Of a stretch of DNA of 17,546 nucleotides, positions 1-17,012 are shown one piece after another (position 1 is the first letter of the stretch; each line of letters begins with the position of its first letter). The notes under the pieces were generated by a model. It was not told where the DNA came from. It worked only from the letters and a program-made list of their open reading frames with translations, and searched no databases. Position numbers and translations under genes: made by a program. The stretch is from Flavobacterium psychrophilum. GTDB taxonomy: Bacteria; Bacteroidota; Bacteroidia; Flavobacteriales; Flavobacteriaceae. The stretch covers positions 1 to 17,546 of the forward strand of contig CAMAWK010000024.1 of assembly GCA_945861915.1 (NCBI GenBank). The letters run 5' to 3'.

Positions 1-603
1 ATGATTATCAAAAACGGGCATAAAATGATGGATTTGATGGGCAACTCGCCTTACGATTTTGTACTCAGCCACACCGATAATCAGTTAGAATCCCTGCAAT
101 CTTTTGTACACAGGACCTTCAACGGACACGATTTTGTTAGTTTCATCAAAGGATTACAGCATATTTACACCCATCATGGCGGATTAGAAGCGGTTTTCTC
201 CAAAAATCAAGAAGAAAACTCCATGCAAAAAAGCATATCGGAATTCAAGAAACTGTTTTTTGAAACGAACTCAATACAACAAAACCGTTCCCTCAAACAC
301 ATTTCAGACCCGATGAATGGCTCGGCTGCCAAACGCATTAATATGTACTTGCGCTGGATGTGTCGCCAAGACAACAAAGGAGTCGATTTAGGGATTTGGA
401 AAAGCATTTCGCCCTCGCTCCTCTCCTGCCCTTTGGATGTGCATTCGGGGAATGTAGCTCGAAAACTAGGTTTACTCACCCGAAAACAAAACGATGGCAA
501 AGCCTTGCTCGAACTAGACACTGCACTGCGATTACTAGACCCAAACGACCCCGTAAAATATGATTTTGCCTTATTTGGATTGGGCGTTTTTGAGGGGTTT
601 TGA
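1..603 (+). CDS. TIGR02757 / DUF2400 family protein, 5' truncated
   Basis: C-terminal portion of a conserved protein of unknown biochemical function, recognised as the TIGR02757 (DUF2400) family common in Bacteroidota. About 200 residues are visible. From memory the family is about 250 residues, so roughly the first 50 should lie upstream of the window. The ATG at position 1 is therefore probably an internal methionine rather than the start. Visible family features are the GHKMMDLMGNSPYDF segment near the edge, the FNGHDF and LQHIY segments, and the NMYLRWMCR followed by DLGIW block near residues 115-132. The LDVHSGNVARKLGL segment and a C-terminal DPVKYDFALFGLG complete the pattern. The protein looks soluble, with no signal peptide in the visible part. 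The stop is TGA at 601-603. Family assignment is fairly sure; function is unknown. Confidence 0.8.
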   Translation: MIIKNGHKMMDLMGNSPYDFVLSHTDNQLESLQSFVHRTFNGHDFVSFIKGLQHIYTHHGGLEAVFSKNQEENSMQKSISEFKKLFFETNSIQQNRSLKHISDPMNGSAAKRINMYLRWMCRQDNKGVDLGIWKSISPSLLSCPLDVHSGNVARKLGLLTRKQNDGKALLELDTALRLLDPNDPVKYDFALFGLGVFEGF

Positions 604-649
604 TGGTAGTAAATAAATACACCCTAAAATATTCTGTAAAAAAAAAGAG

Positions 650-657
650 TATATTTG
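650..657 (+). promoter_or_regulatory. Candidate Bacteroidota -7 element upstream of the cassette
   Basis: TATATTTG matches the Bacteroidota -7 consensus TAnnTTTG. It lies outside and upstream of the cassette-like unit, facing the LprI gene, the position an external cassette promoter would have. No TTG -33 element is seen at the usual 17-23 bp distance, so support is limited to the one box. Confidence 0.35.
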
Positions 658-670
658 GGGAGCGAATAAA

Positions 671-735
671 GTGTGACGTTTGTCACACATATCTACCTAA
701 AAACGGGTGGCTTTGTGTGTTTTTGTCACACATAT
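671..735 (+). repeat. Perfect hairpin plus 14-bp direct repeat upstream of the cassette core
   Basis: GTGTGAC (671-677) and GTCACAC (682-688) form a perfect 7-bp stem with a GTTT loop. The segment TTTGTCACACATAT occurs twice, at 679-692 and 722-735. The second copy ends 6 bp before the cassette-like core GTTGGCG (742-748). The hairpin has no following T-run, so it is not a convincing terminator for the upstream gene. It could be a recombinase or regulator recognition structure, or a remnant of an earlier insertion. What is seen is only the repeat geometry. Confidence 0.55.
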
Positions 736-742
736 AAACAAG

Positions 743-1281
743 TTGGCGGTAATATAGCCTCAGAACTAAATAGAACTCTAAAATTATGAAGATAATCAAG
801 CTGAAATTTTTATTATCATTTTTACTATTTGGTATTTGCCATTGTCTTTCCGCACAAACTCAAAGCGAGATGAATAATGAAGCTTATAAAAATTATGAAA
901 AAGCTGACTTAGAGATGAATAAAGTTTATAAGAAATTACTAAATGGCTTAAATAAAACGGAAAAAGAAATGCTAATTAAAACTCAAAAAGATTGGCTAAA
1001 ATTTCGAGATTCTAATTGTGAATTTGAGGCGGAAGAAAATGAAGGTGGAAGTATTAAGCCTATGGTTTGGGCAATGTGCTTAGAAGAAAAGACTAAAACG
1101 AGAATAAAAGATTTAAAAGCCAGTATAAATAGCAGAAACATAAAATAATATACTACCGCCAACACACGCTACAAGCAATTTGGGTATTAGGCTTAATTTG
1201 AAATTTGTTTTGTATTTGGAAGATTTTGCAAATCCGAATAATGGCTTAATTTAGTCCCAAACTACTTGTAGCGCGAGAACG
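743..1281 (+). mobile_element. Integron-like gene cassette carrying an LprI-family gene
   Basis: This unit has the architecture of an integron gene cassette. It starts inside G|TTGGCG (742-748), carries one small ORF (786-1148), and ends in a long imperfect inverted repeat closed by AAC-G|TT (1278-1283). The left boundary GTTGGCGGTA (742-751) is the exact reverse complement of TACCGCCAAC (1154-1163) at the start of the terminal hairpin; extended, 14 of 15 bp match. This is expected of a cassette: in the circular form its first bases rejoin the right core, so R' and R'' pair. No integrase gene is visible in the window. The cores deviate from the strict RYYYAAC/GTTRRRY consensus, so this could be a divergent Bacteroidota attC or another hairpin-ended mobile unit. 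Confidence 0.5.
786..1148 (+). CDS. LprI / DUF1311 family secreted protein
   Basis: 120-residue protein with a clear signal peptide: a lysine-bearing N-terminus and hydrophobic core over residues 6-20, with likely cleavage after ...CHCLSAQ. The mature part is a short helical domain of the DUF1311/LprI type, with the family pattern AYKNYEKADLEMNKVY, then KTQKDWLKFRDSNC, and a second cysteine in VWAMCLEEKTKTRIKDL. The two mature cysteines are probably disulfide-bonded in the periplasm. LprI of Mycobacterium is a lysozyme inhibitor; most family members are uncharacterised, so that role is only a possibility here. It is the only gene in the cassette-like unit, starts about 44 bp after the left boundary and ends 5 bp before the complementary repeat arm. 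No good ribosome binding site or internal TAnnTTTG box is visible, which suits expression from an outside promoter. Confidence 0.8.
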   Translation: MKIIKLKFLLSFLLFGICHCLSAQTQSEMNNEAYKNYEKADLEMNKVYKKLLNGLNKTEKEMLIKTQKDWLKFRDSNCEFEAEENEGGSIKPMVWAMCLEEKTKTRIKDLKASINSRNIK

Positions 1282-1287
1282 TTAAAA
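1157..1287 (+). repeat. attC-like imperfect hairpin (candidate recombination site)
   Basis: CGCCAAC (R''-like, 1157-1163) is followed by an 18-base arm CGCTACAAGCAATTTGGG (1167-1184). Its near-complement CCCAAACTACTTGTAGCG lies at 1256-1273, with two non-complementary positions out of 18. The site ends in AACGTTAAAA (1278-1287), where GTT is R'-like. The 71-bp loop contains a 10-bp direct repeat GGCTTAATTT at 1190-1199 and 1243-1252. Total length, 131 bp, falls in the upper range known for attC sites. The spacers between core and arm differ in length on the two sides, giving the asymmetry expected of a folded attC. No T-run follows, so it is not an ordinary terminator. Confidence 0.5.
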
Positions 1288-1442: not shown

Positions 1443-2693
1443 ATGAAAAAAATAAGTTTTATTATTGTTTTGTTAGCCATATCGTTGGTTTCTTTCGGGC
1501 AAATTAAATACGACAAAGTTTCTGACTATGGCGAATATCAAGAAAACTGGGCATTGGTTCAAAAAGGCGGTCTTTTTGGGTTTATAGACCTAGAGGGAAA
1601 TGAAATTGTAAAACCACAGTATAGCAAAATAGCGATTTTTGGCGATTTTCAAGAAAAATGGGCGTTGGTTGAAAAAGGCGGTCTTTCAGGATTTATTAAT
1701 ACAGATGGGATAGAAATTGTAAAAACACAATACAATAAAATTTCCCTTTTTGGAGACTTTCAAGAGAAATGGGCTTTGGTGGACAAAGGCGGCCTTTTGG
1801 GTTTCATAGACCAAAACGGAAATGAAATAGTAGTACCACAATACGACAAAATAGCACAGTTTGGGGAATTTCAAGAAAATTGGTCTTTGGTAGAAAAAGG
1901 CGGCTGTTTGGGTTTTATAAACAATGAAGGAATAGAAATTGTAAAACCTGTTTATGAACAAATTCAAGCCTTTGGAGACTTTCAAGAAAAATGGGCGTTG
2001 GTCGAAGTGGGGAAATTTTCAGGCTTTATTAACAACGAAGGGATAGAAATTGTAAAACCACAATACGAAAAAATACTCCAATTTGGTGACTTTAGAGAAA
2101 ATTGGGCGATAGTAGAAGTGGGAGGTTTACTAGGATTTATAGATAATACGGGTAGCGAAATTGTAAAACCACAATACAAAAAAATAGATCCATTTGGAGA
2201 ATACAAAGAAAACCTAGCTTTGATTGAAATGGGTGGCTTAGTTGGTTTTTTAGACATTGAAGGAAAAGAAATTGTAAAACCTAGCTACAAAAAAATTGGG
2301 CAATTTGGCGACATCAAAGAAGATTGGGCTTTGGTAGAAAATGAGGGTCTGTTTGGTTTTATTGACTTAGAAGGCAAAGAAATTGCAAAACCAATTTATA
2401 CTAAAATTGGCATGTTTGGAGAAATTAAAGCCGATTGGGCATTGGTAGAAATTGGCGCACTCGTAGGATGTTTAAACCAAAGCGGAAGAGAGATTGTGAA
2501 ACCTAAATATCAAAAAATTGAGCCTTTTGGAGATTTCAAAATAGATTGGGCTTTGGTAAAAAGAAACGGACTTTCAGGTTTTATTGACGAAGATGGTAAA
2601 GAGGTTATTAAAACCAAATACGAAAAAATCGAAAACGACGAATTATTGGAGGGAATCATAAAAGGAAAAAGAGAAAATCTTTTGCCAAATTAA
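1443..2693 (+). CDS. Secreted WG-repeat protein, ten 37-residue units
   Basis: 416-residue protein with a signal peptide (MKKISFIIVLLAISLVSFG, cleavage probably before Q20 or I21). It is followed by ten head-to-tail WG-type repeats of exactly 37 residues each (residues 23-392) and a short charged tail. Each unit follows the pattern Y.KI..FG(D/E)(F/Y)(Q/K)E.WALVE.GGL.GFI(D/N)..G.EIVKPQ. In the N-terminal half the units are more alike, with FQEKWALV recurring; in the C-terminal half they drift to IKEDWALV and unit 9 has GCLN in place of GFI. WG repeats are expected to form a beta-rich scaffold for binding; no enzyme motif is visible, so the ligand is unknown. There is no lipobox and no C-terminal sorting domain, so the protein is probably periplasmic or released. 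The gene is monocistronic: it follows the attC-like site and ends at a strong terminator. Confidence 0.85.
   Translation: MKKISFIIVLLAISLVSFGQIKYDKVSDYGEYQENWALVQKGGLFGFIDLEGNEIVKPQYSKIAIFGDFQEKWALVEKGGLSGFINTDGIEIVKTQYNKISLFGDFQEKWALVDKGGLLGFIDQNGNEIVVPQYDKIAQFGEFQENWSLVEKGGCLGFINNEGIEIVKPVYEQIQAFGDFQEKWALVEVGKFSGFINNEGIEIVKPQYEKILQFGDFRENWAIVEVGGLLGFIDNTGSEIVKPQYKKIDPFGEYKENLALIEMGGLVGFLDIEGKEIVKPSYKKIGQFGDIKEDWALVENEGLFGFIDLEGKEIAKPIYTKIGMFGEIKADWALVEIGALVGCLNQSGREIVKPKYQKIEPFGDFKIDWALVKRNGLSGFIDEDGKEVIKTKYEKIENDELLEGIIKGKRENLLPN
1509..2618 (+). repeat. 111-bp in-frame tandem repeat array (10 units)
   Basis: DNA encoding the ten 37-residue WG units, each exactly 111 bp with no indels between units. 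Phrases such as GAAATTGTAAAACCACA recur nearly identically in several units, so homologous recombination or slippage could change copy number. Units 7-10 are more diverged than units 2-6. Confidence 0.8.
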
Positions 2694-2870: not shown

Positions 2871-2887
2871 CGCAAAATATGCGTTCC

Positions 2888-4237
2888 ATGACTAGTTTCG
2901 AAAAATTCAATCTCCCAAAATCAGTTCAAAAAGCAATAGACGATTTGGGCTTTGTGACTCCAACACCCATTCAGGAAAAATCATTTTCGGTAATCATGTC
3001 GGGACGCGATATGATGGGAATCGCACAAACAGGAACAGGAAAAACATTTGCTTACCTCCTGCCCTTATTGAAATTGTATAAATTTACGCCCACGCACACT
3101 CCAAAAATAGTTATTCTTGTTCCTACTCGTGAATTAGTCGTTCAAGTGGTAGACGAAGTAGAAAAACTCACCAAATACATGTCGGTTCGAACTATTGGGA
3201 TTTTTGGTGGTGTAAATATCAATACTCAAAAAACCACAGTTTATCAAGGTTGTGATATTCTTGTTGGAACACCCGGACGTGTAATGGATTTAACGTTGGA
3301 CAACGTTATCCGTTTTGAAGAAATGCAAAAATTGGTCATTGACGAATTCGACGAAATGCTGAATTTAGGTTTTCGTACGCAACTGACAGCTATTTTAGCG
3401 ATGATGCCCAAAAAGCGACAAAACATCCTTTTTTCTGCTACTATGACTGATGAAGTAGATGCGATTTTGAATGATTATTTTGATTATCCCGAAGAGGTAA
3501 CCCTTTCGGCATCGGGAACGCCGCTAGAAAATATAACACAAATTACCTACAACGTTCCCAACTTCAACACTAAAATCAATTTACTGAAAGAGTTGTTGCA
3601 AACCAACGAAAACATGAGTCGGGTTTTGGTTTTTGTAAACAATAAGAAGATTTCAGACTTGGTTCACGAGCGAATCGAAGAAGATTTTGAGGGTCAATTT
3701 GGAGTTATACATTCGAATAAATCACAAAATTATCGTTTGAGTACGATGGCGGAATTTCAGACTGGCAATCTTCGAGGGTTGATTACGACCGATATTATGG
3801 CTAGAGGATTAGATATTTCGAATATTACTCATGTTATTAATTTTGAAATGCCTGAATTACCTGAATTATACATGCACCGAATTGGTAGAACAGGACGCGC
3901 CGATGCTACTGGAACGGCTATCAGTTTTGTTACTCCTCGTGAAGACGAAATGAAATTGGCAACCGAAATTCTGATGGATATGGAATTGCCGATTGAACCT
4001 TTGCCTGAAACGGTAGAAATTTCAATAAAATTAATTGAACCCGAAAAAGACCGTCAGCCTCTTAAGTTTTTAATGAAAAAACAAAAATTAGAAGGCGATG
4101 GCGCTTTTCATGAAAAAAGCAAGAAAAACAAAAAAGTGAATTTAGGTGGTCCTGGAATTACCAAGAAAAAAACACATGGTTCTGTTAATAGAAATATGCT
4201 GAAAAATCAAGCGAAAAAACGCAAGGACAAGAAATAA
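2888..4237 (+). CDS. DEAD-box ATP-dependent RNA helicase with DEFD motif II
   Basis: 449-residue superfamily 2 RNA helicase from the ATG at 2888; an alternative ATG at 2879 adds MRS. Motifs in order (numbering from 2888): Q motif FEKFNLP..VTPTPIQ (4-29), Walker A AQTGTGKT (46-53), PTRELV, GG, TPGR (128-131), motif II as DEFD (152-155), FSATM (182-186), VLVFVNNKK, TTDIMARGLDI and HRIGRTGRA. The C-terminal tail of about 60 residues is rich in lysine (KKNKKVNLGG, KKKTHGS, KKRKDKK) and should bind RNA. Likely roles are ribosome assembly or unwinding of structured mRNA, as for the RhlE/CsdA-like group. DEFD replaces the usual DEAD; the catalytic D and E are retained. It converges with the RecD-like helicase, with only 21 bp between the stop codons. 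Confidence 0.93.
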   Translation: MTSFEKFNLPKSVQKAIDDLGFVTPTPIQEKSFSVIMSGRDMMGIAQTGTGKTFAYLLPLLKLYKFTPTHTPKIVILVPTRELVVQVVDEVEKLTKYMSVRTIGIFGGVNINTQKTTVYQGCDILVGTPGRVMDLTLDNVIRFEEMQKLVIDEFDEMLNLGFRTQLTAILAMMPKKRQNILFSATMTDEVDAILNDYFDYPEEVTLSASGTPLENITQITYNVPNFNTKINLLKELLQTNENMSRVLVFVNNKKISDLVHERIEEDFEGQFGVIHSNKSQNYRLSTMAEFQTGNLRGLITTDIMARGLDISNITHVINFEMPELPELYMHRIGRTGRADATGTAISFVTPREDEMKLATEILMDMELPIEPLPETVEISIKLIEPEKDRQPLKFLMKKQKLEGDGAFHEKSKKNKKVNLGGPGITKKKTHGSVNRNMLKNQAKKRKDKK

Positions 4238-8140: not shown

Positions 8141-8445
8141 GCAGACCTGTAAGCCGGATTCTGTCACTAATAAATTAGCACCCTATCATTTATCTAGGCA
8201 CACAATTGCTCGTGTACTCCATCTTTCTACCCTTCGACAACGGGCGAGAAACCCTTAAAAGCCGATATACTTGAAATTTCACCGCATAGAGTTTACCTGG
8301 TTTCACTACAGCATGATCTGTACATTCTTTCTGTTGCACTGGTCCTAACCCGCCTTTGGCTGGCCGACGGCTGTTAGCCGCTATGCTTCTCTTTGGTGTC
8401 CGGACTTTCCTCTCATTATTTCTAACAAGCGATAAGGCAGTCTGC
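8141..8445 (-). ncRNA. rnpB: RNase P RNA (bacterial class A)
   Basis: Catalytic RNA of ribonuclease P, which trims the 5' leader of pre-tRNAs. On the minus strand the conserved blocks appear in order: GAGGAAAGTCCGGACACC (8412-8395), CAACAGAAAGA near 8337, GGTAAACTC (8297-8289) and GACAGAATCCGGCTTAC (8165-8149). The ends pair as P1: GCAGAC at the 5' end (8445-8440) with GTCTGC at the 3' end (8146-8141). A run of T follows (8140-8134) and probably ends transcription. A TACTTTTG -7 box lies 4 bp before the predicted 5' end. Ends are inferred from P1 pairing and the promoter, so they may be off by a few bases. Confidence 0.95.
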
Positions 8446-8449
8446 GGTG

Positions 8450-8457
8450 CAAAAGTA
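8450..8457 (-). promoter_or_regulatory. rnpB -7 element
   Basis: Minus-strand TACTTTTG (TAnnTTTG), ending 4 bp before the P1-defined 5' end of RNase P RNA, as expected for a -7 box. The -33 region is occupied by a heptameric repeat and shows no TTG. Confidence 0.65.
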
Positions 8458-8459
8458 GG

Positions 8460-8502
8460 GATTTTAGATTGTAGATTGCTGATTTTAGATTGTAGATTTC
8501 TG
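8460..8502 (+). repeat. Heptameric short tandem repeat upstream of rnpB
   Basis: Six consecutive 7-bp units fit TTNNNGA or a close variant (TTTTAGA, TTGTAGA and variants). A higher-order 21-bp period is also present: GATTTTAGATTGTAGATT occurs at 8460-8477 and again at 8481-8498. It abuts the rnpB -7 box and occupies its -33 region. Confidence 0.75.
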
Positions 8503-8577
8503 TAAGACATCGAACTTGATTTTTGATAATTATGATTTCAATTAAAAACCTTATTATTGTATGTAAAATTTTCAAAA

Positions 8578-9243
8578 ATGAAACTAAACAATCTATTCTT
8601 TTTAATTATTTGTTTATTAAATATCAATATTTCACTTGCCTGTAAGTGTTTTGAATACGATAAAGAAAAAATGGTTGAATATGGTTTGCATAAATATGAT
8701 ATGGTATTTTATGGAGAACTAATAAAACTAGATACTAACAACAAAACTTATAATTTTAAAATAATAGAACTTTTCAAAGGAAATTTAATCTCAAAAACTA
8801 TTGAAGGTGTTACTGAAGGTGGTAATTGCAGTTTATTTCCTGATAAAAAAGGTTTGTGGATTGTTTATGGTAATTTCAATAATGAAAATAAAATGTCTCT
8901 GAGTATGTGTTCACCAACACAATCACAAGATTTCGGACCGGGTTGGCTTCCTCCACTAGAATTTAAACGTGATACATTCGGTAAAATCATTGAACCTACT
9001 GAAATTGATTCTGAAATCAACTACTTAAAATTTAAATTAGAATCATTAAGAAGTTTTATTTATCAATTAGAACAATTAAGAGCTTATAAATTATCTCAAA
9101 ATAAAATTCCTGTAAGCAAAAAAAATACAGTAAAAGACAATATCACAATCATTTCTTTAATTATCAATATGTTATTAATTTCGATTCTGATTTTTATATT
9201 GGTAAAGAAAATATCTCAATCAAATAAACGAATCAACGAATAA
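8578..9243 (+). CDS. Secreted, C-terminally anchored protein with NTR/TIMP-like cysteine pattern
   Basis: 221-residue protein from the ATG at 8578; an earlier in-frame ATG at 8557 only adds MYVKFSK before the signal peptide. The signal peptide covers about residues 1-21 and would leave the mature protein starting CKC. The pattern of a cysteine at the mature N-terminus, then YDMVFYGELIKL, FKIIELFKG, GGNCSLF, GLWIVYGNF and MCSP, resembles bacterial proteins with a netrin-like/TIMP OB-fold. In those proteins the N-terminal CxC pairs with two later cysteines. A charged linker of about 60 residues with heptad-like leucines follows. A hydrophobic segment (about residues 188-210, IISLIINMLLISILIFILV) and a basic tail then complete a type I membrane topology. 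It does not look like a metalloprotease inhibitor in detail; function is unknown. No neighbour is co-directional and close, so it is probably monocistronic. Confidence 0.7.
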   Translation: MKLNNLFFLIICLLNINISLACKCFEYDKEKMVEYGLHKYDMVFYGELIKLDTNNKTYNFKIIELFKGNLISKTIEGVTEGGNCSLFPDKKGLWIVYGNFNNENKMSLSMCSPTQSQDFGPGWLPPLEFKRDTFGKIIEPTEIDSEINYLKFKLESLRSFIYQLEQLRAYKLSQNKIPVSKKNTVKDNITIISLIINMLLISILIFILVKKISQSNKRINE

Positions 9244-9252
9244 CCAAATCAA

Positions 9253-10005
9253 CTACTTGTGTTTAAACCAACATGAATCGGAATTTTCATATTTCTTAAA
9301 CACTGTATTGACGGGATTTCCGTGAATTAGTAGTTTGTTATATTGCGTTCGAACCAAATAATTAAAAGCACCCATATCGCCAGTAAACAATGTTTTATTT
9401 TCAGAATTATAGCGTTTATGGATTGCCCATAATTTAGCAATAAAAGATTGCATGACCGTTATTGAACCTCCGATAACACCACAATTCAGCAATGTTTCGT
9501 ATTTAAAATCGGTTTCAAAATTGGCATAATCAGTAATCAAATTCCGAAAATGAGTGGAATGTTCTTGCATCCAATCGTTATTCAACACTTCAAGTTCATC
9601 GCCACAAAAAAGGGCTTTCTCATTATCTAAAAACAGTGTTTCTGTAAAAGGGTTTTTCAAAACAACCACATCGGAAACATCTGTAAAAAATAAATTATCA
9701 ATGGATTCTGCATGCTTTTTTAAGAATTCATTGTAAACAAAATACCTAAAAACATTGGGATTGAATTGATTGTTGTATTCGACTTTTATGAAATGGAGAA
9801 AGTCATTTTCGTACTCTTTGCAAGTAGCTTCTGAAAAATTATTATGAAATAGGATTCCTTGCAAACCCAAATCGGCAATCGATTTTGCCCAAGCTGCCAC
9901 AATCGAAAAATCGTCGTTTGGCAATACGGAACTTCTATTTACATCATAAACGCCCGAAATATGAGATGCAAGAATAAGATTCTTGGCCAATTTAAAATGT
10001 TTCAT
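9253..10005 (-). CDS. GT-A-like glycosyltransferase (uncharacterised)
   Basis: 250-residue cytoplasmic protein probably belonging to a nucleotide-diphospho-sugar transferase (GT-A) group. Supporting segments are LFFTDVSDVVVLKNPF, where DVSD may be the metal-binding DxD-like motif, then LLNCGVIGG and TGDMGAFNYLV, and the C-terminal HGNPVNTVFKKYE with SCWFKHK. This arrangement is typical of enzymes related to the galactosyltransferase GMA12/MNN10 or capsule GT groups. It is the second gene of a two-gene operon: its ATG overlaps the stop of the upstream GT2 gene by 4 bp (ATGA), so translation is coupled. The pair probably decorates a surface glycan; acceptor and sugar cannot be told from the sequence. 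The strand ends close to the convergent secreted-protein gene (9 bp apart). Confidence 0.65.
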   Translation of the reverse strand: MKHFKLAKNLILASHISGVYDVNRSSVLPNDDFSIVAAWAKSIADLGLQGILFHNNFSEATCKEYENDFLHFIKVEYNNQFNPNVFRYFVYNEFLKKHAESIDNLFFTDVSDVVVLKNPFTETLFLDNEKALFCGDELEVLNNDWMQEHSTHFRNLITDYANFETDFKYETLLNCGVIGGSITVMQSFIAKLWAIHKRYNSENKTLFTGDMGAFNYLVRTQYNKLLIHGNPVNTVFKKYENSDSCWFKHK

Positions 10006-10649
10006 ACCGTTTCGGACTCACTTTTAACTCTGGCAGTCAAACTATCAGGATTGTCACGATAATAAATGTAGGTTCTTAAATCAAGTTTTTTGACCACAAA
10101 TTGTTGTTCGGCTCTTTCATAAAAATGGGCATCGGCTCCATACATATCCTGAAAATTAAGACTTTCGAATACTTTCTTTTTTCCAAACAAAGTGGCAAAC
10201 AAAATACAATCATCTACGTGCACCACTTCGTTAGTATTAAAACGATCCGGAACATAATAATCTGCTTCCTGATTCACGACGGTTTCGGTAGTTGAAGCTA
10301 TCAAATCTAACGATTCCATTTCGGCAAAACAAGCACTTAAATGATTGGGTTTGTACTCATCATCGGCATCAATCACAGTAATAAATTCGCCATTGCAAAT
10401 TAAAATTCCTTTGTTTACTGATTCCGCTTGACTGCAGTTTTTATGACGCAAATAGGTGATTTTATCTTCGTGCTTGATAGCGTAGTTGAGGATTTCTGTT
10501 TGGGTATTATTATTACTACCATCATCTATAATTAGTAAATCGAAATTGTGATAATCTTGATTCAAAACTGAATCGATGGCTCTTTTTATCAGTTTAAATG
10601 GGGTATTGTAAACCGACATAATAACGGAAACTCTATTTCTAAAAGGCAT
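10002..10649 (-). CDS. Family 2 glycosyltransferase
   Basis: 215-residue GT2 (GT-A fold) enzyme. Family features are the N-terminal VSVIMSVYNTP, AIDSVLNQDYHNFDLLIIDDGS, then NKGILICNGEFITVIDADDEYKPNHL, where DADD is the metal- and UDP-sugar-binding DxD motif. The protein is shorter than many GT2 enzymes (about 250-330 residues) and ends soon after the YERAEQQFVVKKL segment, yet it has no frame defect; it may be a natural short form. No membrane segment is present. It is first in the operon and overlaps the downstream glycosyltransferase by 4 bp. The start is the ATG at 10647-10649; no strong ribosome binding site precedes it. Confidence 0.88.
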   Translation of the reverse strand: MPFRNRVSVIMSVYNTPFKLIKRAIDSVLNQDYHNFDLLIIDDGSNNNTQTEILNYAIKHEDKITYLRHKNCSQAESVNKGILICNGEFITVIDADDEYKPNHLSACFAEMESLDLIASTTETVVNQEADYYVPDRFNTNEVVHVDDCILFATLFGKKKVFESLNFQDMYGADAHFYERAEQQFVVKKLDLRTYIYYRDNPDSLTARVKSESETV

Positions 10650-10722
10650 AATTGGGGTAAAAAATTAAACTATTGGCAAGGTACAAACTTGCAGTAAGAT
10701 ATAGATTAATTTTAAATTAAGA

Positions 10723-10740
10723 ATTTCATTTTAATGAAAT
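10723..10740 (+). repeat. Near-perfect palindrome in the dnaX promoter region
   Basis: ATTTCATT and AATGAAAT form 8-bp arms around a 2-bp centre. It lies 22 bp upstream of the dnaX -7 box, where a -33 element or operator would be. No TTG -33 element is otherwise seen, so it could be a regulator site, but an AT-rich chance palindrome is possible. Confidence 0.4.
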
Positions 10741-10762
10741 ATATAAATTAAAATATTAAAAC

Positions 10763-10770
10763 TATATTTG
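10763..10770 (+). promoter_or_regulatory. dnaX -7 element
   Basis: TATATTTG, an exact TAnnTTTG match, 17 bp before the dnaX ATG at 10788. No clear -33 TTG is visible. Confidence 0.5.
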
Positions 10771-10787
10771 CTCAACTTAAAATTTCT

Positions 10788-12544
10788 ATGGAACAATTTG
10801 TAGTATCGGCTCGAAAATACCGTCCGCAAACATTTAAAGATGTAGTGGGGCAAAAAGCAATTACGAGTACATTATTACACGCCATCGAAAGCAATCACTT
10901 GGCCTCTGCCTTACTTTTTACAGGTCCTCGTGGTGTTGGAAAAACAACTTGTGCTCGAATTTTGGCTCGAAAAATTAACCAACCCGGTTATGATGACCCA
11001 AACGAAGATTTTGCTTTTAATGTATTCGAATTAGATGCTGCTTCGAACAATTCTGTTGACGATATACGAAATTTGATTGATCAAGTGCGCATCCCACCGC
11101 AAACTGGGCAATACAAAGTGTACATCATCGATGAGGTTCATATGTTGTCTTCAGCCGCTTTTAACGCATTCCTAAAAACCTTAGAAGAACCACCCAAGCA
11201 TGCCATTTTTATATTGGCTACGACCGAAAAGCACAAAATTATCCCAACTATACTATCTCGTTGTCAGATTTTTGATTTTAAACGAATTACCGTCAAAGAT
11301 GCCAAAGAACATTTAGCTGAAGTGGCTCAAAGTCAAGGCGTTATTTGCGAAGACGATGCATTGCACATTATAGCTCAAAAAGCCGATGGTGCCATGCGTG
11401 ATGCTTTGTCGATTTTTGACCGAGTGGTTTCGTATTGCGGGACCAATTTGACTCGTCAAGCGGTTACAGAAAATCTAAACGTATTGGATTATGAAACTTA
11501 TGTTTCTATAACCGACTTAATTTTAGAGAATAAAATTCCAGAATTATTGATTGCTTTCAACGAAATTCTTTCCAAAGGATTTGATGCACATCATTTTGTT
11601 TCTGGTTTGGCCTCACATTTCAGAGATTTATTAGTCTCGAAAACACCTGCAACTTTATCATTATTAGAAGTGGGCGAACAAGCCCAAAAATTATACGGAA
11701 TCCAATCTCAAAAGGCATCACAAGAATTCCTGTTGAAAGGAATCGAAATTGCCAACGACTGCGATTTGAAATACAAAGTGAGTCAAAACCAGCGATTATT
11801 GGTTGAACTTTGCCTGATGCAACTAGCCTCTATCACTTTTGATGGAGAAAAAAAAAAGTTGAGTCCTTTATAATTCCACCGACTTATTTCAGAAGAACGA
11901 ATTATTCTATCGTCGAAAGTGTAAAGTCGAAAGTCGAAAATCCGCAGGAGATTAATACAACTACTAGTCTTCCTGGAATTGAAATTCCAAACCAAGTTGT
12001 TTCTTCAATAGATTTACCCCAAAGCCCAGACCCCAAAGCTCATACCCTAGACCCAAGTCCTCAAACCCAAGACTCTCAAGAAGAAATAAAAATTTCTGCC
12101 TTATCACTTTCGAGTATTCGAGCCAAAAAAGAATTACAAGAGAACAATAAATCGCTAATCAAAGAAGAATTTCAACATGCAACTGAAGCTTTCAACGAAA
12201 CAGATATGTTATTGCATTGGAGTAAATATGCGCAACGACTGGGCGATAAAGGGCATAAAATCATGGAGTCGCTTTTATTAATTACCAATCCAAAACTGGA
12301 CGGAACAACGATTATTCATGAATTGCCTAATGATGGTTCAAAAATTGAATTTGAAACCGAAAAACAAGAATTGTTAGGCTATTTGAGAGGCAAACTTCAT
12401 AATCATGACATCACTATTGAAGTCATTGTAAATGAAAAAGTGGAACAAAAATTTGCTTTTACTGCTCAAGACAAATACAATAGATTGAATGAAATAAACC
12501 CCAATTTAGAGTTATTGAAACGCACCTTTGATTTGGATATTTAA
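10788..12544 (+). CDS. dnaX: DNA polymerase III subunit gamma/tau, with -1 frameshift
   Basis: Clamp-loader ATPase and organiser of the replicative polymerase. The first frame (10788-11873, 361 residues) is a complete gamma-like protein. It has Walker A GPRGVGKT (46-53), ELDAASNN, Walker B IIDEVHML (113-120), sensor 1 LATTE (143-147) and the arginine-finger SRC (157-159), then domain III. It ends shortly after a ten-A run. Reading in the -1 frame from there continues as FIIPPTYFRR, a Pro/Ser/Gln-rich linker, ISALSLSSIRAKKEL and the C-terminal domain MLLHWSKYAQRL to the TAA at 12542-12544. The full tau product would be about 585 residues. No four-cysteine zinc module lies between Walker A and ELDAASN; GYDDPNEDFAFN occupies that place. 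The dual product could be programmed, or the run could be miscounted in the assembly. Confidence 0.9.
11844..11858 (+). promoter_or_regulatory. dnaX slippery site (A10 run with in-phase A AAA AAG)
   Basis: GGAG (11844-11847) is followed by ten A (11848-11857) and G. The zero frame reads GAA AAA AAA AAG TTG, so the heptamer A AAA AAG (11852-11858) is in the phase used by the E. coli dnaX frameshift site. The zero frame stops at TAA 11871-11873, giving a gamma-length product. A -1 slip enters the tau frame. The GGAG is only 4 bp from the heptamer, closer than the roughly 10 bp in E. coli, and I see no strong downstream hairpin. Transcriptional slippage on the A-run, as in Thermus dnaX, is an equal or better explanation. 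Confidence 0.7.
11912..11939 (+). repeat. Heptamer repeat GTCGAAA x4 inside dnaX
   Basis: Four adjacent 7-bp units, three identical (GTCGAAA) and one variant (GTGTAAA), in the tau-specific linker just after the frameshift site. 28 bp is not a multiple of three, so gain or loss of one unit would change the frame of tau but not of gamma. Confidence 0.8.
12018..12080 (+). repeat. Heptamer repeat array, about nine units, inside the dnaX linker
   Basis: Nine consecutive 7-bp units close to CCCAAAC (for example CCCAAAG, then CCCAGAC) encode the Pro/Gln/Asp/Ser-rich part of the tau linker. Pattern and length recall the heptameric STRR sequences known in cyanobacteria. Here they lie in a flexible linker that tolerates low-complexity insertions. 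Confidence 0.75.
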
Positions 12545-13082: not shown

Positions 13083-14060
13083 CTATGAAATATAGATTTC
13101 TAAAATCGATGCATTTCCTTCGAGAGAAAAAGTCTTTAAATCAGCAGGAAGTAGTACCGTTATCCCCATTTTATAAGACTGAATTGAGCCATCATATTCT
13201 ATTTTAAAACTTCCACATACACATAAAAACAGTAAACGAACTACCATTTTTATCAAATAGTATATTTCCATCAAGCGGAATAAAATTTGTAGTAAAATAA
13301 GAAAAGTTAACTATAGTATTGGACTGATTTGATTTTCGTTCGTATTGAATATACGTATCCACTTTGTCAAAAGTTATTGTATCCAAAGCCAATTCAACAT
13401 GTTATTCTCTTTCGTTACCTTGTTCATCGACTCTGTCAAAATCATGTAAACGATAAGTAATATCAGAGGTTTGTTGAATTTCGGCTAAAACGATTCCTGC
13501 TCCAATGGCATGAACAGTTCCTGTTTCTAAAAAGAAAACATCGCCTTGTGAAGCATTTTTAACATCCAAAACGGACATTATTTTCTTGTCTTCTATTTTT
13601 TTTTACAAATTCATCTGGATTGATTTTTTCATTGAAATCGGCAATCACCCTAGAATTTTCATCCGCTTGCATCACATACCACATTTCTGTTTTTCCAAAA
13701 GAATCATGGTGTTTTTTTTGCAAAAGCATCATTAGGATGAACCTGAATGGATAAATCCAATCGAGCGTCGAGAAATTTGAATAATAAAGGAAATTGTTTA
13801 CCAAATTTATTAAAAACAGCAGTTCCTACAATTGCTTCTGAAGCTAAATCTATCAAATCATTCAATGATTTCCCAGCTAAAATTCCATTTAAAACCTTAC
13901 TTACATCTCCTTATACAGTTGATATTTCCCAACTTTTGCCTATTGTTTCGGAAGTAATAGGTTTTTCTAAAAGAGAAAATAATTTGGTTCCTCCCCAAAT
14001 TCTATCTTTTAAAATAGGCGTAAACTGTAATGGATTAATTTTGGAATCATGAATTTGTAT
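13083..14060 (-). pseudogene. manA: Mannose-6-phosphate isomerase (class I), decayed
   Basis: Reading the minus strand from about 14060 gives a nearly full ManA (about 325 codons): INPLQFTPILKDRIWGG, GKSWEIST, FPLLFKFLDARLDLSIQVHP, then KTEMWYVMQADE, GTVHAIGAGI, ITYRLHDFDR and a C-terminal ILEIYIS. ManA interconverts mannose-6-phosphate and fructose-6-phosphate for nucleotide-sugar synthesis. The frame is broken by a GAA-to-TAA-like stop at 13911-13913 and +1 changes in an A8 run (13712-13719) and an A9 run (13596-13604). A TTA-to-TAA-like stop at 13402-13404 and a shift near 13225-13229 add to this. No ATG opens the frame; ATA stands at 14058-14060. The metal-binding Gln/His/Glu/His pattern remains recognisable, so decay is recent. 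It sits downstream of bcp in the usual order idi, queD, bcp, manA. Confidence 0.85.
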
Positions 14061-14102
14061 TGGTGACGAATTTAATTATTTAAATAGTATTCAGAAATAT
14101 TA

Positions 14103-14570
14103 TTACTTGATTTCAGCAACTATTTTTTTGATGGTTTTCAAAGCCATTGGAATATGATTAGTTGCAATAACACTATCAAAAATCAATCTAATAATTCCTT
14201 TTTCGTCAACAATATAGGTAACTCGACCAGGAACTAAACCAAACAAATGCGGTTTTACACCAAATAAATTTCTTATTTTTTTATTGTCGTCTGAAAGTAA
14301 GGTGAAAGGCAAACGATATCGTTTAGAAAATTTTTCGTGTGAGGCCGAGCTGTCACTACTAATTCCAATAACTTCGGCTCCTAAATCCTTAAAATCTTCA
14401 TACTGATCTCGAAAACTGCAAGCTTGTGCAGTACAGCCTGGTGTATTGTCTTTGGGGTAAAAATAGAAAACAACTGGCTTTTTGCCCACAACGGAACTGC
14501 TTTCAAAAATGATTCCTCTACTATCTTTTGAAACGAAATTCGGTATTTTATCACCAATTACTAATGCCAT
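14103..14570 (-). CDS. bcp: Thioredoxin-dependent peroxiredoxin, Bcp/PrxQ type
   Basis: 155-residue peroxiredoxin of the Bcp/PrxQ group that reduces hydrogen and organic peroxides in the cytoplasm with electrons from thioredoxin. The family core is VVFYFYPKDNTPGCTAQACSF with the peroxidatic Cys46 and the resolving Cys51 (2-Cys PrxQ spacing), GISSDSSASHEKF, and FTLLSDDNK. Its ATG overlaps the TAA of queD by one base (TAATG). An AAAGGAG motif precedes the ATG by 5-6 bp, a rare good Shine-Dalgarno site here, and implies translational coupling. Length fits the family (about 150). It is intact although its downstream neighbour manA is broken. Confidence 0.95.
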   Translation of the reverse strand: MALVIGDKIPNFVSKDSRGIIFESSSVVGKKPVVFYFYPKDNTPGCTAQACSFRDQYEDFKDLGAEVIGISSDSSASHEKFSKRYRLPFTLLSDDNKKIRNLFGVKPHLFGLVPGRVTYIVDEKGIIRLIFDSVIATNHIPMALKTIKKIVAEIK

Positions 14571-14980
14571 TATTCTCCTTTATAGGTTACAAAATTTCGT
14601 GGAGTTTCATACAAAACAACTTCCAAATCAAATTCCGTATTAATTCTTTTTCGTAATTTATTCCAAATTACCACGACTATATTTTCGGCAGTTGGATTTA
14701 GATTTTCAAATTCTGGTACATCTAAATTCAAATTTTTGTGGTCGAACTTTTTTTCAACTTCTTCCAAAATCAAATCGCTTAAAATCTTTACATCCATAAC
14801 GTAACCAGTTTCGGGATCTATTTTCCCAGTAACACTTACTATTAATTCATAATTATGACCATGAAAATTAGGATTGTTGCATTTGCCAAAAACCGTATCA
14901 TTTTGTTCAAATGTCCAGTCTTTTCGATACAATCTGTGGGCTGCGTTAAAATGTGCTTTTCTTGAAATAGTAACTTTCAT
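14570..14980 (-). CDS. queD: 6-carboxytetrahydropterin synthase / PTPS family protein
   Basis: 136-residue zinc enzyme of the QueD/6-pyruvoyl-tetrahydropterin synthase family. QueD converts dihydroneopterin triphosphate to 6-carboxytetrahydropterin, the first committed step to queuosine. Zinc ligands are His14 (FNAAHRL), His39 and His41 (FHGHNY); the catalytic Cys33 lies in FGKCNNPN, and the C-terminal glutamate is in LYETPRNF. FDHKNLN and PTAENIVV are also typical. QueD rather than PTPS is preferred for a bacterium with this length, but the two cannot be separated by eye. It follows idi after a repeat-filled 97-bp spacer and overlaps bcp by one base, so it may share a transcript with bcp. 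Confidence 0.9.
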   Translation of the reverse strand: MKVTISRKAHFNAAHRLYRKDWTFEQNDTVFGKCNNPNFHGHNYELIVSVTGKIDPETGYVMDVKILSDLILEEVEKKFDHKNLNLDVPEFENLNPTAENIVVVIWNKLRKRINTEFDLEVVLYETPRNFVTYKGE

Positions 14981-14992
14981 TAGTAATTTATA

Positions 14993-15075
14993 GTTTAAAG
15001 GTGTAAGGGTTTAGAAGTTTAAAGAGTTTAGGGTTTTGAATTTTGAATTTGTTTTTTGAGATTTGATTTTTGAAA
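14993..15075 (-). repeat. Degenerate 8-bp then 7-bp tandem repeats between idi and queD
   Basis: Read on the plus strand, six units of about 8 bp with the shape GTTTANNN run from 14993 to 15040 (GTTTAAAG, then GTGTAAGG and variants). They pass into six 7-bp units close to TTTTGAA (15034-15075). The array fills nearly the whole spacer and ends 2 bp from the idi stop codon. GTTTANNN is the reverse complement of the NNNTAAAC unit at 5748-5804. No terminator is visible in the spacer. Confidence 0.65.
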
Positions 15076-15077
15076 TT

Positions 15078-15605
15078 TTAAATCGTATGATCTTCTAAAA
15101 AGTGATAAAATTCATCAAAAATAATTTTGAACCAAACCGTATAAATTTCAGGATTATTTTGAATGTCATTTTGAACTTCTTCAATGCCCATCCATTTCCA
15201 GTTCTCTACCTCTTCAGGATTGATATTTGGTTTTTCGTTGTAGTAGCCAATCATCACATGATCTAATTCGTGCTCAGTCAATCCATTATCAAAAGGTGCT
15301 TTGTAAATAAAATGAAACAACTCTTTCAAGGGGGTGTCAAAGCCCATTTCTTCGAACAATCTTCGGTTTCCTGCCTGAATGTTTGTTTCTCCATCGCGCT
15401 GATGACTGCAACAGGTATTCGTCCATAATAATGGCGAATGGTATTTTTGTTTGGCTCTTTGCTGGAGCATAATTTCGTTTTTGTCATTTAATACAAATAC
15501 CGAAAATGCTCTGTGCAAAACCGCTTTTTGATGTGCTTCTAACTTAGGCATTAGCCCAATTTGTTCGTCGTTTTCGTTCACCAATATTACTTTCTCCTCT
15601 TCCAT
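15078..15605 (-). CDS. idi: Isopentenyl-diphosphate delta-isomerase, type I
   Basis: 175-residue Nudix-fold enzyme that interconverts IPP and DMAPP, supplying isoprenoid precursors for carotenoids, menaquinone and undecaprenol. Metal-binding His25 and His31 lie in EAHQKAVLHRAFSVF, the catalytic Cys66 in WTNTCCSH, the Nudix-like helix in AGNRRLFEEMGF, and the catalytic Glu113 in TEHELDHVM. The terminal VWFKIIFDEF block is also typical. Flavobacteria make IPP by the mevalonate pathway, where this enzyme is essential. It is first in the idi, queD, bcp, (manA) set. The start ATG at 15603-15605 follows a TATTTTTG -7 box by 17 bp. Confidence 0.95.
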   Translation of the reverse strand: MEEEKVILVNENDEQIGLMPKLEAHQKAVLHRAFSVFVLNDKNEIMLQQRAKQKYHSPLLWTNTCCSHQRDGETNIQAGNRRLFEEMGFDTPLKELFHFIYKAPFDNGLTEHELDHVMIGYYNEKPNINPEEVENWKWMGIEEVQNDIQNNPEIYTVWFKIIFDEFYHFLEDHTI

Positions 15606-15622
15606 TCTAAATTTTTACATTT

Positions 15623-15630
15623 CAAAAATA
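15623..15630 (-). promoter_or_regulatory. idi -7 element
   Basis: Minus-strand TATTTTTG (TAnnTTTG), 17 bp before the idi ATG. No TTG at the usual -33 distance is seen. Confidence 0.45.
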
Positions 15631-15834
15631 CAAAAAAAGAAATGGATTTTGGGATTACAGAAAGTTTATGAAAAGTTTAACGAGCGTTTAGTGAGTGTAA
15701 TTCCTATCTTTAATTCGTTTTAAATGAAGTTTATTTCTAATAAAAAAACTGATTAATCCTATTGAATTTGTTAAAGTTATCCAAACATTCAATTCATTGT
15801 AAACTAAGTGACATTTTTACATTCAAACCAAAAT

Positions 15835-15842
15835 TAAATTTG
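15835..15842 (+). promoter_or_regulatory. -7 element of the msrBA gene
   Basis: TAAATTTG (TAnnTTTG), 18 bp before the ATG at 15861. It lies inside the longer open frame that begins at 15762 and so supports the inner start. Confidence 0.5.
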
Positions 15843-15860
15843 TTGTATAAAAACGCAACT

Positions 15861-16976
15861 ATGAAAACACCTATCAAATTCCGAAATTTATTATTTTTAA
15901 TCCCGTTATTTATGCTCCAAGCTTGTGGGCAAACAACCAAACAAAATCATTCTCAAAAAACAAATATTATGCAAAATTCCATTTCTAAACCTGAAAACCC
16001 ATATTACTCTAACACCGATTCCACAAAATTGAACGTCTCTGACGCTGAATGGAAAAAAGTGCTTTCGCCTGATTTGTATGCCGTTTCTAGAAATGCCGAC
16101 ACCGAACGTGCCTTTACAGGAAAATTATGGGATTCTGAAGAAAAGGGAACCTATTATTGTGCCGCTTGTGGGAACAATTTATTCCGCTCCAATCAGAAGT
16201 TTGTTAGCAGTTGCGGTTGGCCAAGTTTTTTTGAACAGGAAAACAAAAATAGTGTGGTTTTCAAAGCTGATAATTCTTATGGAATGAAAAGAATCGAAGC
16301 ACTTTGTGGTCGATGCGACGGACATTTAGGTCATCTTTTTGATGATGGCCCAGCTCCAACTGGCAAAAGATATTGTATGAATTCAATAGCGTTAGATTTT
16401 GTGCCTGAAAAAGCAATTACTAATATAAAACAAACTAACGATACTTTCGAAACAATTACACTTGGTGGTGGCTGTTACTGGTGTGTAGAAGCCGTTTACG
16501 AAAAATTAGATGGCGTTCAATCGGTAGCTTCTGGATTTATGGGAGGTGTTGGTGCTAACCCTAGTTATAAAGAAGTTTGCTCTGGCACAACTGGTCATGC
16601 CGAGGTGGTTCAAATTACTTTTGATAAATCGAAAACGAGTCTAGACGAAATTTTTCAAGTCTTTTTTACGGTTCATGACCCAACCACGCTCAACCGACAA
16701 GGTGGCGATGTGGGAACGCAATATCGCTCGGTTATTTTTTATGCCAATAACGAACAGTACCAAACCGCCAAATCAATTATAAATCAATTGAATGCCGAAA
16801 AAGTGTTTGCCAACCCAATAGTTACAACGCTTGAAGAATATCAACCTTTTTACAAAGCCGAAGATTATCATCAAAATTATTATGAGAATAATAAAAGTCA
16901 GCCGTATTGCCAAATGGTAATTCAGCCCAAAATAGAAAAGTTTGAAAAAATATTTAAGTCGAGATTAAAAAAATAA
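15861..16976 (+). CDS. MsrB-MsrA bifunctional peptide methionine sulfoxide reductase, lipoprotein
   Basis: 371-residue fusion from the ATG at 15861; the frame is open from 15762, but the first 33 codons precede a -7 box and do not look like a signal peptide. The N-terminus is a lipoprotein signal (LFLIPLFMLQACGQ, lipobox cysteine 22), so the enzyme is probably membrane-anchored on the periplasmic side. The MsrB domain comes first, with zinc CxxC pairs CAAC and CGRC, a Cys in SSCGWPSF and the catalytic Cys in RYCMNS. The MsrA domain follows with GGGCYWCVEA, where the first Cys is catalytic, and YHQNYYENN near the end. MsrA repairs the S and MsrB the R epimer of methionine sulfoxide. The order MsrB-MsrA is reversed from PilB-type proteins. 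A terminator follows 6 bp after the stop. Confidence 0.93.
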   Translation: MKTPIKFRNLLFLIPLFMLQACGQTTKQNHSQKTNIMQNSISKPENPYYSNTDSTKLNVSDAEWKKVLSPDLYAVSRNADTERAFTGKLWDSEEKGTYYCAACGNNLFRSNQKFVSSCGWPSFFEQENKNSVVFKADNSYGMKRIEALCGRCDGHLGHLFDDGPAPTGKRYCMNSIALDFVPEKAITNIKQTNDTFETITLGGGCYWCVEAVYEKLDGVQSVASGFMGGVGANPSYKEVCSGTTGHAEVVQITFDKSKTSLDEIFQVFFTVHDPTTLNRQGGDVGTQYRSVIFYANNEQYQTAKSIINQLNAEKVFANPIVTTLEEYQPFYKAEDYHQNYYENNKSQPYCQMVIQPKIEKFEKIFKSRLKK

Positions 16977-16982
16977 TCTCCC

Positions 16983-17012
16983 AAAACCGAAAAGCAATTT
17001 TCGGTTTTTTTT
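16983..17012 (+). terminator. Rho-independent terminator of msrBA
   Basis: AAAACCGAAAA (16983-16993) pairs with TTTTCGGTTTT (16998-17008) around a GCAA loop, and the T-run extends to 17012. It lies 6 bp after the stop codon. Confidence 0.88.

Follow-up and report, generated by a model that had tools for sequence, protein, structure and literature searches.

A probable chromosomal integron remnant in Flavobacterium psychrophilum and the integron-like cassette arrays of its relatives

The Flavobacterium loci described here have much in common with the classic IntI chromosomal integrons of Vibrio and Xanthomonas: a tyrosine recombinase, an attI site, a one-directional array, hairpin attC sites with a G^TT cut, and pairing between cassette start and R'' box. 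In an integron the first bases of a cassette pair with its own R'' box, and the IntI-specific insertion, or domain, is thought to define integron integrases and is held to be essential for handling folded attC sites. Unlike the classic enzyme, the Flavobacterium recombinase lacks this insertion and stays under the TIGR02249 cut-off, and its gene points at the array, whereas the classic one points away. Archaeal XerA acts on chromosome dimers, and the XerA-type family NF040815 is the best NCBIfam match to the Flavobacterium recombinase, which in contrast to XerA carries an extra N-terminal beta-beta-alpha-beta-beta stretch (in the structure model) and sits at cassette arrays. In the available text of one study (PMC3607928) the integrase gene usually faces away from the array, whereas in Treponema it is read toward attI, the way the cassettes run, and T. 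phagedenis has kept attC sites and seemingly lost intI; on that account, the orientation toward the array and the apparent loss of the integrase gene in one species both have a counterpart in Flavobacterium. As to the phylum, the available part of the IntegronFinder 2.0 paper gives one complete integron in Bacteroidetes proper, that of Salinibacter ruber (PMC9024848), the accessible portion of a review counts Bacteroidota among the phyla with integrons (PMC8618304), and the taxon models of attC in the accessible sections of a further paper include none for Bacteroidota (PMC8352920). Preprints aside, we found no description of integrons with a recombinase of the Flavobacterium type in the open-licence PMC literature; as far as could be seen, the name 'integron integrase' exists in automatic annotation and the system itself is undescribed.

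The window, by which we mean the whole stretch of 17,546 nt that was analysed, very probably holds between its DUF2400 and DEAD-box genes the remnant of a chromosomal integron, reduced to attI and one cassette by deletion of the recombinase gene (Table 1). The initial annotation had proposed an integron-type cassette without an integrase, and there is indeed no recombinase gene in the window, while both the attI and the attC profiles match. The unit it delimited, 742..1287, contains a real cassette, but the G^TT cuts give 743-1281 and the attI-like site at 641-744 had been overlooked. No second attC was found in the window, which holds one cassette only. The alternative name offered at the time, a lone CALIN-like site, is rejected: a CALIN comprises at least two attC sites and no attI, and here one attC accompanies a complete attI-like site.

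Table 1. Positions of the features in the window from the DUF2400 gene to the DEAD-box helicase gene
Feature	Position	Strand	Remarks
DUF2400 gene	1..603	+	left chromosomal neighbour; Pfam PF09674, 241.5 bits
Possible degenerate relic of the recombinase 3' end (weak)	610..639	+	TAA at 637-639; 20/30 nt match
attI-like site	641..744	+	crossover AAG^TT after 742; palindromes 671-688 and 714-732; nhmmer profile
TATATTTG, candidate -7 box of a cassette promoter	650..657	+	TAnnTTTG enrichment
Gene cassette	743..1281	+	539 bp between two G^TT cuts
Cassette gene, LprI/DUF1311, 120 aa	786..1148	+	Pfam PF07007, 84.6 bits; signal-peptide-like start
attC-like site	1154..1287	+	R'' 1154-1163, stem and loop, R' GTTAAAA 1281-1287; profile and covariation
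WG-repeat gene	1443..2693	+	right neighbour; Pfam PF14903; cassette status only a possibility
DEAD-box helicase gene	2879..4237	+	right chromosomal neighbour; Pfam PF00270

The single gene of the cassette was correctly recognized as LprI/DUF1311. It has 22 relatives at E<=1e-10, and a homologue of its protein, 42% identical, sits in a cassette of another locus (L149). Matched against plasmids the cassette gave nothing, and against phages a single 60-nt match within a tail gene; a looser attC pattern hit 29 stretches of viral contigs, none of which continues into the hairpin when inspected by eye. The WG-repeat gene, which consists of 111-bp units, sits in the interval from attI to the DEAD-box gene; relatives without an integron have nothing there, and the gene may therefore be an old cassette that has lost its attC. 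Downstream of it, at 2753-2811, perfect 13-bp arms (TTGACCGCTACTT and AAGTAGCGGTCAA) are followed by a T run, likely an intrinsic terminator.

The exact reverse complementarity between GTTGGCGGTA (742-751) and TACCGCCAAC (1154-1163) was confirmed, each occurring once in the window, and the 131-bp hairpin at 1157-1287 ends AAC|GTT as had been claimed. A complementary 10-mer within 600 bp is expected by chance at about 1.6e-4; inverted 10-mers spaced 150-1500 nt apart number 121 in the window, ten of them with at least 5 G/C. As the folding energy of the hairpin only modestly beats that of shuffled sequences (z -1.74; 7 of 200 shuffles equally good), energy alone is no proof, and it is conservation that supplies it. 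Scanning genome contigs with CCGCCAACANNCGCTACAAGC returned 36 stretches, in 30 of which the conserved site was recognized by eye (27 named Flavobacterium records and three MAGs, assigned to Flavobacteriales, Crocinitomicaceae and Bacteroidetes), truncated in L063 and with an altered 3' end in L033; by the same inspection it is absent from L036, L038, L040, L041, L044 and L046. Aligning 60 attC sites yields one stem of 17 pairs, with 95.7% of the stem cells paired. Changes on both sides of a pair occur in 116 cells, compared with a mean of 40 after shuffling, and affect 11 pairs; sliding the stem partner by 1 to 3 columns abolishes this covariation signal. A profile made from the 59 other sites finds 1157-1284 of the window at E=1e-38. 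The hairpin thus has many copies, and they lie in arrays, which is the opposite of the absence of copies named in advance as grounds for dropping the cassette interpretation.

Among the matches listed, some of the CCGCCAACANNCGCTACAAGC stretches are arrays, with up to about ten head-to-tail sites in 8 kb (L035 and L045), and others contain one or two sites. Some cassettes of L030 and L035 show no evident long reading frame and many GCAGAAGCGTGAAAATTGGAA-like units. Elements starting with CA(A/G)(A/G)CTGT lie exactly at the attC crossover ACGT in L061 (minus strand, about 7393), L051 (about 2780) and L049 (minus strand, about 6642), and also in L034 and L042; the one in L049 is short, MITE-like and flanked by ACGT on both sides, and those in L061 and L051 carry what we take to be a transposase-like gene, so named from its presumed family. 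The attC crossovers may thus be an insertion target. At another locus (L137, genome G326) two runs of weaker attC matches, 8200-11385 and 13826-17012, are spaced at about 608-620 nt, as would result from tandem multiplication of a single cassette.

The complementarity of a cassette start to its own R'' core, noticed in the window, holds in these arrays. For sites of at least 40 bits lying at most 3 kb apart, with both boxes placeable, 58 adjacent pairs could be compared: the hexamer behind GTT agrees with the reverse complement of the following R'' at 5.21 of 6 positions on average and perfectly in 42 of the pairs, whereas shuffled pairings average 2.61 and reach a maximum of 3.19 in 5000 trials. 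The other 16 pairs are imperfect, 11 of them at 4/6 or less; the imperfect pair of L049 is due to the element inserted at the crossover. Walking from attI through locus L132 passes 15 successive cassettes with 0/9 mismatches, and the same walk returns the window cassette with 0/9 mismatches at the length given in Table 1. In L138, L139 and L140 the walk from attI met no attC-bounded cassette, and these loci are therefore more decayed than that of the window. Intact relatives have recombinase, attI and one-directional array in that order on one strand, with attC matches on the recombinase strand numbering 37 in 40 kb (G262), 31 in 40 kb (G171) and 20 (G114) after the recombinase; sparse arrays also exist, such as that of G277 with two attC matches.

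The search for an IntI-type tyrosine recombinase, which the initial annotation had recommended, was answered in part: a recombinase does lie beside attI and the arrays in relatives, but it is not a classic IntI. None of seven array-bearing genomes passed the curated TIGR02249 cut-off of 265 bits, while generic recombinases were matched in 14 of 14 controls at E<=1e-5. A tyrosine recombinase of 347 aa is full-length in four of these seven genomes and truncated in a fifth, and was not seen in the remaining two, F. piscis and Flavobacterium sp. LC2016-01. Three loci (L066-L068) have its gene immediately upstream of the first cassette, pointing toward the array. Three recombinases of this kind score 210.3, 205.3 and 202.5 bits with TIGR02249, below the cut-off of the IntI family. 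With NF040815 ('site-specific tyrosine recombinase/integron integrase', XerA-type) they reach 222.2, 217.7 and 228.2 bits for a cut-off of 220, and some database proteins of the same kind already bear that name automatically. Between GKGxKxR and HxLRH all 13 Flavobacterium recombinases measured have 59 residues and all 11 true IntI have 100, so that the IntI insertion of about 41 residues is absent; measured against structure 2a3v, the recombinase has 15 residues in place of 57. Spacing was measurable in 11 IntI, 13 Flavobacterium, 15 other Bacteroidota and 1 Xer sequences. The label IntI is rejected on these grounds: without the insertion and below the cut-off, the loci are integrons by architecture and their enzyme is not a member of the IntI family, and the missing insertion places it in a separate integrase lineage. 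A tree was built from 44 of 55 requested loci (IntI 11/12, Flavobacterium 13/13, other Bacteroidota 16/20, Xer 4/10), the other Bacteroidota loci L182, L186, L188 and L192 having dropped out by motif; its deep branches are long, and the order of IntI, Xer and Bacteroidota recombinases in it is not trusted. A single-sequence structure model was useless (pLDDT 38.8), and the alignment-based one (pLDDT 81.1, pTM 0.53), with its large rmsd to full-length chains, supports only a tyrosine-recombinase fold. In this predicted structure residues 1-60 (in L068, 1264-1443) form the N-terminal beta-beta-alpha-beta-beta stretch, which has no Pfam match and may bind the palindromes of attI.

Directly 3' of the recombinase stop, about 105 bp are conserved; they comprise the TATATTTG box, two palindromes with arms that vary among integrons, and ATATAaAcaAG^TT. 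With the window left out of its construction, a profile of these 105 bp recovers 641-744 at 67 bits (nhmmer); on 26 held-out recombinase loci it matched 14 at E<=1e-4 in what is a very small search set, the remaining loci giving weaker matches and two of them no match. The box fits TAnnTTTG, the -7 consensus of Bacteroidota, and at 37 of 57 loci this motif occurs no more than 45 nt from the recombinase stop, compared with 2.4% of 15,362 background 45-mers, making the box a candidate promoter element for the cassettes.

DNA of the DUF2400 gene is present in 338 of 348 Flavobacterium genomes, at a best identity of 79%, and 20 of these loci were fetched. In four of them (L124, L126, L127 and L128) the DEAD-box gene follows DUF2400 directly. 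Four others (L110, L113, L115 and L121) have attI after DUF2400 at E=2.5e-7 or better and, between the two, the last codons of the recombinase without the rest: the relic reads KSIQKIKSPFDDL-stop in L121 and KSVQQVKSLFNDL-stop in L115, and the match to the 3' end of the intact recombinase is 29/30 nt in L121, 28/30 in L115, 25/30 in L110 and 24/30 in L113. As attI and these codons persist in four of the 20 loci, the recombinase gene was probably deleted. The gene order of the window equals that of the four relic-bearing relatives, and we infer the deletion for its own lineage as well. The window's relic, at 20 of 30 nt, is equalled by 2 of 464 TAA-ending controls and is less striking at other lengths (18 of 464 controls as good at 24 nt, 10 of 464 at 45 nt). 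An intact recombinase is encoded elsewhere in genomes G168, G207 and G275, so that action in trans is possible in some; genome G295 is not among the 202 with a recombinase homologue.

An empty site joining 742 to 1282, proposed beforehand as a check, was not seen in the 20 loci. Precise junctions at GTT are seen for another cassette of the wider family: two Bacteroidota genomes, with recombinases 60% and 43% identical to the query, share the first cassette after attI (97.6% identity over 1059 alignment columns), the homology setting in precisely at GTT, where left flanks and attI sites that are unrelated to each other end, and stopping at CCGTTAGC. The start of this cassette and its R'', TACCGCCAAC, are reverse complements of each other. 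Cutting between sites gave 155 cassettes, with 36 near-identical pairs among them; 20 of these pairs link different genomes, identities reach 97.6%, and exact copies stand at different positions inside G262.

Of 348 Flavobacterium genomes, 202 have a homologue of the recombinase at E<=1e-40 and 137 a close relative at E<=1e-88, some of the latter partial or broken; attC-model matches at E<=1e-3 were found in 231, at most nine candidates being scored per genome. With the recombinase threshold of our choice, E<=1e-88, 103 genomes combine recombinase and attC, 34 have just the recombinase, 128 just attC and 83 neither (odds ratio 1.96, p 0.005), a modest association implying that many arrays either are orphans or depend on more distantly related enzymes. 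Across the phylum, 98 of 395 Bacteroidota genomes encode the recombinase at E<=1e-60. Among 20 such loci with downstream DNA, two have attC of the Flavobacterium type (10 and 8 raw matches), one (L191) a single weak match and 17 none. Repeated sites of a different sequence occur in L182 and L186, and in L186 the pairing of starts with R'' holds by eye; most of the others among these 20 show, again by eye, no more than an attI-like end and a start resembling that of a cassette.

The layout of the intact relatives runs from the recombinase gene straight into attI, the candidate promoter box and a one-directional array. We propose that the enzyme fuses a cassette circle with attI, or with an attC, at G^TT, that attC acts as a folded, single-stranded hairpin, and that the box would drive the cassettes. 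The first bases of a cassette would pair with its own R'' only in the circle, leaving the signature seen in the window, and the cassette stranded there would be mobile only if such an enzyme were supplied in trans. Gene order, boundaries, pairing, precise junctions, shared cassettes and the recombinase relics of the relatives are established at the level of DNA sequence, and the relatives' system is integron-like in every architectural feature that sequence can test.

A different history for the window is that a secondary chromosomal site received its cassette by insertion in trans, at a locus that never had a recombinase gene. The window has no such gene and its own relic is weak, which would suit this account, but by profile its attI is complete (E=1.5e-20), and in four relatives codons of the recombinase survive at the same place between DUF2400 and attI; we consider it unlikely. 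More improbable still is that the host XerC/XerD moves the cassettes at dif-like sites, the neighbouring recombinase being incidental. Sites of the dif/Xer kind hold palindromes, as attI does, and the recombinase resembles XerA; yet attI lies directly behind the recombinase stop in many genomes, including the 14 of 26 held-out loci matched at E<=1e-4 (in the very small search set), and palindrome arms that differ among integrons fit a fixed XerC/XerD pair poorly.

Hardly any weight is left for the hairpin as a MITE or other dispersed palindrome that has nothing to do with cassettes, an idea that draws on the likeness of the Flavobacterium sites (80% mean column identity). Randomly oriented copies with target duplications would favour it, and the fetched arrays show the opposite: their copies face one way with gene-sized segments between them, each start matching its own R'', and in distant Bacteroidota hairpins of other sequence follow this logic too. 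We therefore retain an integron remnant that has lost its recombinase gene as the explanation of the locus.

With rather less confidence, we lean toward the view that a class of integrons peculiar to Bacteroidota extends across the phylum and relies on XerA-like recombinases, able to handle folded attC sites although they lack the IntI-specific domain; cassette capture would then have arisen twice or would need no such domain. If this is true, surveys that require an IntI profile would miss the integrons of Bacteroidota. How a tyrosine recombinase recognizes a folded attC site, and whether the IntI insertion is needed for it, can now be tested. If the view is right, integrons are commonplace on Flavobacterium chromosomes and reach other Bacteroidota as well.
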